Positions 29,647-40,296 of a DNA stretch of 42,406 nt are shown in pieces. The notes beneath the pieces are model-generated. The model was not told the origin of the DNA, did no database searches, and was given only the letters and a program-made list of their open reading frames with translations. Numbering within the stretch: the first letter of the stretch is position 1; every line of letters starts with the position of its first letter. A program made the translations under genes and the position numbers. The stretch spans positions 1 through 42,406 of the forward strand of contig JAFDEI010000031.1 of assembly GCA_019310425.1 (NCBI GenBank). The letters run 5' to 3'. This DNA is from Deltaproteobacteria bacterium. GTDB taxonomy: Bacteria; Myxococcota_A; UBA9160; SMWR01.

Positions 29647-29907
29647 TCAGAACTTGCGACTCATGCGTTCGATCCCGCCCAGAAAGAGGTCGGTGGCGAA
29701 CTCCGTGGCGGCATCGACGTCGGCGCGCGTGCGGACCCCGGTTGCGAGATCGGTCCGGCGGATGATGTCGCGTACGGTCGTGGCGCCGAAGCCGATCTCA
29801 CAGGAGGCCTCGCGCGCAGCCCGCAGAATCGCCGACCGGTTTCGCGAAGTGTTCTGCTCGCGTTTCCCTCCTTCGACGGCTCCCATTGCAAATCCACCGG
29901 ACGACAT
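29647..29907 (-). pseudogene. TetR regulator with ligand-binding domain deleted in frame
   Basis: An 86-residue frame that keeps only both ends of a TetR protein. Residues 20-57 are a full helix-turn-helix (SRNRSAILRAAREASCEIGF, then TTVRDIIRRTDLATG). The normal next residues (TFYNYFPDKE-type) are missing, and the sequence jumps at G57 to VRTRADVDAATEFATDLFLGGIE, which is the last helix of TetR proteins. About 100 codons are lost without a shift. The ATG at 29905-29907 has GAGAGG four bases ahead; a GTG lies three bases upstream. It might still bind DNA as a domain, but the dimer interface is mostly gone, so a non-functional gene is likeliest. It follows the acyl-CoA dehydrogenase by 69 bases. 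Confidence 0.78.
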
Positions 29908-29976
29908 CACGCCTCTCTTCCGACCTCGCGCCTCAGAGATCGAGACACCGCATCGACCTCCCCGCCAGAGTCGACG

Positions 29977-31188
29977 CTAGAGCTTCTCGGCCCCGACCAG
30001 GCCGAGCAGGTCGTTGCAGCCGTCCTCGATCATCGAGGCCCGGGCATCACGTAGCAGCTTCTCGACCGGATATTCCCGGCTCAACCCGTTCCCGCCGAAG
30101 ATCTGGAGTGCCTGGCTCGCGACCTCGAATGCGGTCTGGGTGCAGAACGTCTTGGACGCGATCGAGTACTGGACCAGCGGCGGCTGGGTGGAGTTGTAGA
30201 GCATGACGCGACGCGAGAGAGAACGCGCCGCCTCGACCTGGCTGAACATCCGGAACAGCTTCGATTTCACGTTCTGGTGCTGGAAGATCGGCACGCCGCC
30301 CTGCACACGCTGCCGCGAATATTCGAGCGCATGCTCGTAGGCCGCGCGCGCGACGCCGACGAAGGTCGTGCCCATGAAGGCGTTCGCGGTCGCGAGGACC
30401 AGCTCGACAATCGTGCTGTAGGCGTCTGATCCGACCACCATGTATTCGCTGGGAATCCGGACATCGTCGAAGAAGATCTCGCCCTGGTTGAGGGCGCGCT
30501 GCCCGAGCTTGTCGAGCGGCGCTCCGCGCGACACACCGAGCAGGTCGAGCGGAACGAGCGCAACACCACCGCCCTTGAAGCCCTGGCTCGGGTCGATGGT
30601 GCAGAACAGTGCCGCCACTGTGGCAATGGTTCCATTCGAAACCCAGGCTGCCTTCTGCCCGCGGATCACCCACTCATCGCCGTCCTTCGTCGCGATGCAG
30701 TTCGCCCGGATGCTCGGATCGCCAAAGTGCGGCTGATCGAACGCGAGCGTATCGCTGCCGTGATCCGGCTCGGTGATGGCCCAGCAGCCGATCTCGGGGC
30801 GTTCGGGCGAGGCAAACCGTTCGACGAGTTCGGGGCGGCCGACGAGCTTCGCGAACATGCCGGGGAAGCCCGCAACACCGAGGCTGATTGCGATTCCCGA
30901 ATCGCCCCAGCCGATCTCTTCGTTCACGAGATAGCGAATGCGTGCGGACGACATGGGGTCCACGCCCGCCTCACCGGATTCGAGCGCGTGCAGCCCGAGG
31001 TCCCGGTACTTTTCGAAAACCCGCCACAGCACGGAATCCTTCGCAATCACATCGGCGGGATCGTGCAGCCGGTCGAGTTCGATGCCGGCGGGGCGGACCA
31101 CCTCCTCGACGAACTTGCGGGTTACATCGCGAATTTCCCGCTCTTCGTCGCTGAGTCCGATTTCGATGTCGGGCATGGGAGTGGGCAT
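29977..31188 (-). CDS. acyl-CoA dehydrogenase
   Basis: A 403-residue flavoenzyme of normal length. The N-terminal helical domain starts IEIGLSDEEREIRDVTRKFVEEVV. The middle domain has CWAITEPDHGSDT for FAD and substrate binding and EWVIRGQKAAWVSNG. The C-terminal helices contain QALQIFGGNGLSREYPVEKLLRDAR, where the family FAD-binding GG turn lies, and RDARASMIEDG. The catalytic acid, usually a Glu in this last helix, may be Glu in IEDG. It oxidises acyl-CoA to enoyl-CoA, passing electrons to ETF. I take the ATG at 31188 over a GTG at 31224, since GGAGAA precedes it. A two-operator promoter lies directly upstream, so it is likely TetR-controlled. Confidence 0.92.
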   Translation of the reverse strand: MPTPMPDIEIGLSDEEREIRDVTRKFVEEVVRPAGIELDRLHDPADVIAKDSVLWRVFEKYRDLGLHALESGEAGVDPMSSARIRYLVNEEIGWGDSGIAISLGVAGFPGMFAKLVGRPELVERFASPERPEIGCWAITEPDHGSDTLAFDQPHFGDPSIRANCIATKDGDEWVIRGQKAAWVSNGTIATVAALFCTIDPSQGFKGGGVALVPLDLLGVSRGAPLDKLGQRALNQGEIFFDDVRIPSEYMVVGSDAYSTIVELVLATANAFMGTTFVGVARAAYEHALEYSRQRVQGGVPIFQHQNVKSKLFRMFSQVEAARSLSRRVMLYNSTQPPLVQYSIASKTFCTQTAFEVASQALQIFGGNGLSREYPVEKLLRDARASMIEDGCNDLLGLVGAEKL

Positions 31189-31206
31189 GAGGGGTTCTCC
31201 AAAACT

Positions 31207-31220
31207 TGACGCATCCGTCA
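31207..31220. promoter_or_regulatory. operator-like palindrome TGACG-N4-CGTCA, copy proximal to the acyl-CoA dehydrogenase
   Basis: TGACGCATCCGTCA is a perfect 5-4-5 inverted repeat 19 bases upstream of the acyl-CoA dehydrogenase ATG. On the minus strand it would cover the transcription start. An identical-class site lies 31 bases further out. The pair suits a TetR dimer pair. Which protein binds is not shown. Confidence 0.65.
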
Positions 31221-31223
31221 CCA

Positions 31224-31252
31224 ATTGAATAGCAGGATGACGGGTGCGTCAA
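31224..31252 (-). promoter_or_regulatory. candidate promoter of the acyl-CoA dehydrogenase
   Basis: On the minus strand a TTGACG -35 box lies at 31252-31247. TTCAAT at 31229-31224 gives a 17-base spacer; TATTCA at 31231-31226 is an alternative with a 15-base spacer. The -35 box is part of the distal palindrome, so a bound repressor would block it. Confidence 0.5.
31238..31251. promoter_or_regulatory. operator-like palindrome TGACG-N4-CGTCA, distal copy
   Basis: TGACGGGTGCGTCA is a perfect 5-4-5 inverted repeat, differing from the proximal copy only in the four-base centre. Centre-to-centre spacing is 31 bases, close to three helical turns, which would put two dimers on the same face. It overlaps the TTGACG -35 box and the start of a decayed receiver fragment. 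Confidence 0.65.
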
Positions 31253-38705: not shown

Positions 38706-40142
38706 TCATGCCTCGACGGCGGCTCCAGACGCACTCGTCTCGACTCCGGCAATCTTGGCGAGCTGCACGAACGACTCCTGGATCCGCGTGACGAAATCGG
38801 CGAGGTCGGGCACCAGGCCGAGGTCGGCGTTGAAACCCCAGCAGACATTGCCGTTGTAGCTGATGAGCGCAATCCCGAGCCCGACATTCGCGAGCAGCGG
38901 CACCTGTGGATACATCGCGAGCAGCTCGGAACCGAGCGTGTAGAGCGGAAACTGCGGGCCCGGCACATTGGTGACGATCGAATTCATGGTGCCGGAAGCC
39001 GCCTGCGCGCCGAGAGACACCAACGCGTTGGGCATGACGCCCATCATGCCGATGATCATGTCCGCACCCAACGCTTGATGCGAATCCTTGAGTTCCTGCG
39101 TCGTTTCGTGAATACGCTCGAGCTGCTTACGCGGGTCGGACTCTCCAACCGGAAGGCGCACGAGCCAACCCGAGACTCGATTCCCGAGCTTGCCGCGATC
39201 TTCGTCACTGCGAACGCTCACGGGTGCCTGGACACGGAAGTCGAGACCACTCGGGTCGATGCGGCGACGCATCAGGTAGCTTCGGAACGCACCCGTCACC
39301 ACGGTCAGCACGACATCGTTGACGGTGCACTTCATACCGCGCCGAATCGCCTTCACGTCTGCGAGCGGCACCTTCCACCAATCGAACAAGCGGTGCGGGC
39401 CGAGGGGACCGTTGATCGGCGTCGGCGAGGCGTAGCTGGACTGACTCGCAATTGCACTGCGCACCGCGCGGGTCCGCAGCATCAGCTCTTCGCGCAAGTT
39501 CTCGGTCTCACGCCGGAACTCCCGGAATCCCCGCAGTGCGCGGAGTGGCATGCCGAGCCGAATACGCGCGGCATCGCGAACGAGTTCCGACCCGGTCGGC
39601 TCGGGGCGCGGAATGTAACGGGGCCCCTCTTCGAGCTCTGTATCGGGCGTCAGACGCATCAGGATCTGCGAGATGTCGACGCCCGACGAACCGTCGATCA
39701 TGCAGTGATGAATCTTGCTGATCATCGCGAAGCGGTCACCCTCGAGCCCCTCCACCACCCAGATTTCCCAGAGCGGTCGGTCGCGATCCAACTGCTGCGC
39801 CATCACACGGGCAGCGAGCTTCTTGAGCTGTGTCTCGGAACCGGGCTTGGGGAGGCTGGTGTGCCGCACGTGGTAGTCGATATTGAAGTGGGGGTCGTCG
39901 ACCCAGACCGGATGCGCCTCGATCGGAACCCACTTGAGCTTCTGGCGATAACGCGGGATCCGGTGCAACACCGATTCGATGAAGTGCTTGAACCTGTCGA
40001 ACGCGACCCCGCCATCGTCGCTCGCGAGCGGCCCGAGTTCGAGGATCAGCGTCGAGGCGACGTGCATGTGGAGATTCGGCGTTTCCCAGAGTAGAAACGT
40101 CGTGTCCTGGCCGGAAAGTCGGTCGTAACTGTATCGTGCCAC
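38706..40142 (-). CDS. wax ester synthase/diacylglycerol acyltransferase (WS/DGAT)
   Basis: A 478-residue enzyme that forms wax esters or triacylglycerol from acyl-CoA. I take the GTG at 40140-40142, which has AAGGAG six bases ahead and gives the usual ARYSYDRLSGQDTTFLLWE start. The catalytic motif HHxxxDG is HHCMIDG at 145-151. PLWEIWVVEGL precedes it at about 123-133, and CTVNDVVLTVVTGAFR and SIVTNVPGPQFPLY are the conserved C-terminal elements. The length is normal for this membrane-associated family. It indicates storage-lipid synthesis or possibly lipid remodelling. The molybdoenzyme gene on the same strand ends 154 bases upstream, so they may be separate transcripts. Confidence 0.93.
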   Translation of the reverse strand: MARYSYDRLSGQDTTFLLWETPNLHMHVASTLILELGPLASDDGGVAFDRFKHFIESVLHRIPRYRQKLKWVPIEAHPVWVDDPHFNIDYHVRHTSLPKPGSETQLKKLAARVMAQQLDRDRPLWEIWVVEGLEGDRFAMISKIHHCMIDGSSGVDISQILMRLTPDTELEEGPRYIPRPEPTGSELVRDAARIRLGMPLRALRGFREFRRETENLREELMLRTRAVRSAIASQSSYASPTPINGPLGPHRLFDWWKVPLADVKAIRRGMKCTVNDVVLTVVTGAFRSYLMRRRIDPSGLDFRVQAPVSVRSDEDRGKLGNRVSGWLVRLPVGESDPRKQLERIHETTQELKDSHQALGADMIIGMMGVMPNALVSLGAQAASGTMNSIVTNVPGPQFPLYTLGSELLAMYPQVPLLANVGLGIALISYNGNVCWGFNADLGLVPDLADFVTRIQESFVQLAKIAGVETSASGAAVEA

Positions 40143-40164
40143 TCGGATCTCCTTCCCCGAACTC

Positions 40165-40193
40165 ACTGTCTCGCCAGCGCGCGACACTGTCAA
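40165..40193 (-). promoter_or_regulatory. candidate promoter of the WS/DGAT gene
   Basis: A consensus TTGACA -35 box lies at 40193-40188 on the minus strand. A 17-base spacer leads to a weak GACAGT -10 at 40170-40165, about 23 bases before the GTG. GACAGTGTC around the -35 is itself a small palindrome and GACAGTG recurs at the -10, so a repressor site is possible. Confidence 0.4.
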
Positions 40194-40296
40194 GTCACAT
40201 CGTGAATCCAAGACGCCGGCCTCTCGGTCGAAGCAGGCAGGAAAACCGAAGATCCAAGGGGGGGCCGCGGCGGCCGAACCTCGCCGTTGCCCGCAT

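Follow-up and report, generated by a model that had tools for sequence, protein, structure and literature searches.

The two palindromes in front of an acyl-CoA dehydrogenase (ACAD) gene, within the 42,406-nucleotide stretch of DNA analyzed here (the window), most probably form a twin operator for a dedicated TetR repressor that ends the same operon, an operator that has probably been orphaned in the window's genome; we give this reading a probability of roughly 0.7. Two perfect TGACG-N4-CGTCA sites were found, 31 bp centre to centre, as originally predicted. The 5-bp arms are perfect in both sites, while the N4 core is itself non-palindromic. The features of the locus are as follows.

31247..31252, minus strand: -35 element TTGACG (inferred); TTGACG or TTGACA in 8/8 aligned promoters
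31238..31251: operator O1, TGACGCACCCGTCA as read on the minus strand, overlapping the -35 element and the spacer, perfect arms
31224..31229, minus strand: -10 element TTCAAT (inferred), 17 bp from the -35 element
31207..31220: operator O2, TGACGGATGCGTCA as read on the minus strand, over the expected transcription start, perfect arms
31197..31200, minus strand: GGAG, likely ribosome-binding site from its sequence, 8 nt before the ATG
29977..31188, minus strand: ACAD, 403 aa, with Pfam acyl-CoA dehydrogenase domains; heads the ancestral operon
29736..29737, minus strand: junction of an internal 366-bp loss in tetR, from abutting tblastn pieces and the anchor distance
29650..29910, minus strand: TetR remnant, ~86 aa, N-terminal part of the helix-turn-helix (HTH) region fused in frame to the C-terminal end

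The ACAD reading frame starts with the ATG at 31188. The first start in the ORF listing is a TTG at 31224, which would put one operator inside the gene; the ATG was preferred because it agrees with the N-termini of the orthologs, which are 77-85% identical to the window protein in the clade of genomes with TetR. The predicted placement of the operators on the -35 box and the expected transcription start held up, both in their positions relative to the inferred promoter elements and in their conservation at orthologous promoters. Palindromes that overlap the inferred core promoter elements in this way are as expected of a TetR-type operator. Since O1 lies on the -35 element and spacer and O2 on the expected start, the arrangement suits repression; it is the position of the sites that points to repression rather than activation.

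Orthologous promoters were aligned on TTGACG, and the clade comprises eight promoters including that of the window, a set picked after the motif had been seen. The element TGACR-N4-YGTCA occurs in 8/8 of these promoters (shuffle mean 0.02, maximum 1), so that the lack of conservation named in the original prediction as evidence against it was not observed. In the seven orthologous promoters the O1 element is found at the same place, with 0-1 mismatch in six and 3 in G063. The 31-bp double operator is present in the window and in G042 and G005, where no site departs from the consensus by more than 1 mismatch, and G063 also has the 31-bp spacing, with a perfect second site and the degenerate first site. 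These four exact 31-bp pairs span three families, and the spacing is kept in three genera other than that of the window. O1 alone, with O2 absent, is seen in G052, G058, G019 and G046. The -10 element reads TTCAAT in the four double-operator promoters and TTGAAT, TTGACT or TTGCAT in the other four, always 17 bp from the -35 element. Chance can be considered as the origin of the palindromes, as exact matches across the window's genome are about as common as those of a reversed control (10 vs 6), but it predicts no conservation where an element was found in all eight promoters, nor two sites within 45 bp at one promoter with a spacing kept in other genera, and we regard it as negligible.

The prediction had further held that the motif defines a regulon that could be found by scanning the genome for TGACGN4CGTCA. 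This part did not survive the scan. The window's genome is a metagenome-assembled genome (MAG) of 4,908,392 bp in 368 contigs, 91% complete, in which motifs were counted by pattern searches. Its 10 exact sites, set against the 6 of the reversed control, show no enrichment, the other outcome that the original prediction had named as counting against it, and the sites checked revealed no second promoter. The 8 sites other than the operator pair are scattered singly and all lie within likely genes, as judged by an ORF and codon-bias check; the nearest of them to a 5' end (L010) falls within the N-terminal region of a sigma-factor-like ORF. In the window, the operator pair is the only exact match, and the 30 matches with up to two mismatches are in no excess over a shuffle mean of 36.8. 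Thus, the signal consists of the exact pair and its location, not of a general excess. For KTGACRNNNNYGTCAY, a degenerate motif built on the ortholog promoters, the whole genome has 10 strand hits versus 4 in the control, with the ACAD promoter as the sole intergenic match. Across the exact, one-mismatch, two-mismatch (in the examined part of the list) and ortholog-derived scans no other clear promoter was found, and the 30 of the genome's 44 TetR loci that were scanned contained a single type-1 match, the known coding site on C231. We therefore rejected a regulon defined by TGACG-N4-CGTCA: as far as the sequence can tell, the motif is local to the ACAD promoter in its own genome, and the twin sites appear to be a real, conserved switch for this promoter alone. 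In the relatives, motif matches total near chance expectation, and intergenic ones were noted in G019, beside a nitric-oxide-reductase-like gene, and in G005, next to a hisF-like gene. The G019 site (L144, G019:C50:57684-57699), an intergenic TTGACGAGTCCGTCAT between nitric-oxide-reductase-like and Rrf2-like genes named by eye, lies 20 kb from the ACAD gene of that genome and could be due to chance.

The regulator is best sought in the operon itself. The ancestral operon runs ACAD, nitroreductase family, thiolase family and AMP-binding ligase, with the addition of a TetR gene in one clade; in every operon that was read this gene comes after the ligase, and in some relatives it is followed by a luciferase-like gene. 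PF00440 (the TetR_N HTH domain) scored above the cut-off in 3/3 TetR proteins scanned from orthologous operons. TetR is present in 7/7 relatives bearing the operator versus 0/12 with the operon but without the operator (Fisher 2e-5, uncorrected for kinship). In this count the TetR genes of G005 and G052 lie on a second contig, apparently a continuation of the operon; in G081 and G006, which also have TetR, the promoter of the operon was not readable. Since the window and the TetR genomes form one clade in the ACAD tree (support 98/93), the association, though strong, may reflect a single event. The original proposal of a TetR protein as the candidate regulator thus stands, and the TetR that ends the operon is the likely regulator of the operators. 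A separate observation concerns the window gene at 38706-40211, which shares a protein cluster with the gene that immediately precedes ACAD in L194 and L016.

From the sites, their spacing and conservation, the co-occurrence with TetR and the truncation as assembled, we infer a mechanism in which a TetR dimer would bind O1, on the -35 element and spacer, and O2, on the start, blocking RNA polymerase. The two operators are about three helical turns apart and therefore face the same side of the helix. Release of TetR would come from an intermediate of the pathway, probably an acyl-CoA, and TetR would be autoregulated, its gene being the last in the operon. In the window as assembled, the locus is reduced to ACAD and a TetR stump without a recognition helix.

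This stump, which the original prediction had missed, lies directly behind the ACAD gene, and none of the nitroreductase, thiolase and ligase genes is present at the window locus. With tblastn, the stump matches TetR residues 15-63 followed immediately by 186-213, and the distance between two conserved anchors is 36 residues in the window against 158 in five orthologs that were measured. This corresponds to an exact in-frame loss of 122 codons. PF00440 matched the remnant over positions 1-31 of 47, below the cut-off. The remnant lacks nearly all of the ligand domain as well as the GTFYNYF region, which we take to be the recognition helix of this TetR. In the 91%-complete MAG it is the only hit to this TetR family at E <= 1e-15, and no full-length member or intact regulator was found in the assembly. 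As only the stump was found, the switch may have lost its regulator; as the stump has no recognition helix, the operators are probably orphaned and ACAD is probably derepressed, unless a full TetR resides in the unassembled part.

Both operators are nevertheless perfect despite the broken repressor. This combination would be expected after a recent loss, but equally if the 9% of the MAG that is missing held a full copy or if the assembly were in error. The operators could still be in use if such a full TetR, or another of the 44 proteins with TetR_N matches in the genome, binds them. This alternative is compatible with the TetR-operator part of our reading and opposes the orphan part only. The perfect sites, the incompleteness of the MAG and the number of TetR proteins speak for it, while the lack of a second homolog at E <= 1e-15 in the assembly speaks against it, as does the thiolase at the end of contig C187. 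This thiolase is the closest copy in the genome, but it groups with that of G051, outside the TetR clade, so there is no sign of a displaced operon, and C187 was rejected as the site of one. On balance we consider continued use unlikely, at about one chance in four. Other paralogous thiolases and ligases are present on further contigs of the genome, with paralogous gene sets at L221 (G000:C237) and L220 (G000:C67); C237 carries all four enzymes, 54-67% identical to those of G019, without this operator.

The truncation might instead be an assembly artefact that hides a normal operon with a working TetR, which again would oppose the orphan part alone. The MAG is in 368 contigs, and the stump shows no decay: it contains no stops, and its differences from G063 over 73 codons are distributed 8/5/35 by codon position, a pattern resembling that between intact orthologs. 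A remnant of this kind is compatible with a recent loss, a constrained fragment or an assembly error alike. However, the loss of the middle genes and the loss of the TetR interior would both need to be artefacts, the internal loss comes to precisely 122 codons, and the junction shows no long repeat in the window sequence as assembled. We therefore hold an artefact to be improbable, and retain the orphaned twin operator as the preferred reading.

A different palindrome, which the original prediction did not mention, occupies the ACAD promoter of most relatives that have the operon without TetR. ATGA-N6-TCAT is found in 14/16 of the TetR-less promoters examined (shuffle mean 0.01), a descriptive count rather than a blind test, as the motif was already in view when the 16 were picked. 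In G047 and G023 the forms are imperfect, and G051, outside the 16, has no ATGA-N6-TCAT at its ACAD promoter. TGA-N6-TCA is the half-site spacing of CRP/FNR sites. A CRP/FNR-family gene is encoded in 12/12 of the TetR-less operon genomes versus 25/80 genomes overall, adjoins the operon in several, and in G029, G040 and G022 itself has TATGAT-N4-ATCATA upstream. In some relatives a -10-like element was seen by eye ~21 bp downstream of the palindrome, although not uniformly, and this distance would fit an activator bound near -41. The palindrome lies further upstream than the window operators, a position more in keeping with activation than with repression. Contigs labelled Chloroflexi or Anaerolinea (L017, L019, L023, L058) carry the operon with ATGA-N6-TCAT, through either transfer or mis-binning.

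In the window's genome, TATGAYNNNNRTCATA (the TATGA-N6-TCATA type) occurs 7 times versus 0 in the control, and none of the 7 is at the window ACAD promoter. The sites (L232, G000:C285, with L229, L230, L231 and L234) include one close to a CRP/FNR gene that has a hemerythrin gene divergent to it, and others that precede genes for PhyH, TetR, FAD-oxidoreductase and, as assigned by eye, a possible TorD-like protein. Together, these sites look like a real CRP/FNR regulon. This raises the question of whether a CRP/FNR-type protein binds the window sites (TTGACGNNNNCGTCAA), as it probably does the palindrome of the TetR-less relatives, given that these have a palindrome at the same promoter along with the CRP/FNR-family gene and that the window's genome has an ortholog. 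The half-sites in the window are, however, spaced as TGA-N8-TCA, not TGA-N6-TCA, and the N6 motif of this genome is found elsewhere than at the ACAD promoter. Such binding is very unlikely, and the TetR operator remains our interpretation of the window sites.

The TetR clade is nested in the tree within genomes of the CRP/FNR-site type, so the simplest reading is one swap to the TetR operator. This suggests a single regulator swap at the ACAD promoter, from a CRP/FNR-type site to a TetR operator. A fuller history is more tentative and, in our estimate, falls somewhat short of even odds: a single rewiring of this promoter within the bacterial class, in which a CRP/FNR-type site placed for activation gave way to a twin operator repressed by a TetR whose gene was added at the operon's end, followed in the window's lineage by an in-frame cut in the repressor that left both operators perfect, the switch being seen shortly after this loss. 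Among the TetR-type genomes, the CRP/FNR homolog of G019 (G019:C4:18664-19320) has one internal TGA, and no hit to this homolog was obtained at E <= 1e-30 in G005 and G058, possibly reflecting decay after the regulator swap.

The operon apparently changed its class of regulator; living relatives still display both the older site and the newer one, and the regulon of the older site is still present in the same genome. The locus also indicates that a palindrome can be perfect with no working regulator next to it. An unnamed TetR family is tied here to a specific candidate operator, giving a protein-DNA pair that lends itself to direct testing.

TetR control of an acyl-CoA operon is an ordinary kind of system. 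In a small literature search the literal motif had no match, itself weak evidence of novelty, and within that scope the TetR family, the operator and their history appear new. The CRP/FNR-type control that we propose for the relatives' operon also employs a palindrome upstream of the orthologous ACAD, with another half-site spacing and further upstream than the window operators. A PDB sequence search with the operon's TetR returned 3ang as the third-best hit (E 3e-11), which we take to be FadR (TTHA0101) of Thermus thermophilus, a TetR family protein. FadR of this species controls fatty acid degradation genes through the operator TTRNACYNRGTNYAA (PMC5597230), so that a sequence relative of the operon's TetR has an operator unlike that of the window. 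SbtR (TTHA0167) of Thermus thermophilus HB8, also of the TetR family, recognizes the consensus TGACYrnnyRGTCA (PMC7022988). This has the same TGAC-N6-GTCA geometry as the window operator, but with Y/R at the inner bases where the window has G/C; it is a likeness of operator geometry, which counts towards the TetR reading. The mycobacterial TetR family protein BkaR represses an acyl-CoA-related operon locally as well as its own gene, and a 16-bp palindrome, GTTA(N)T(N4)A(N)TAAC, occurs twice in the promoter region (PMC3920632). BkaR differs in its operator sequence and in being divergent from its main target, whereas the window-type TetR is last in the operon, but it exerts a similar twin-site, local control of an acyl-CoA operon.
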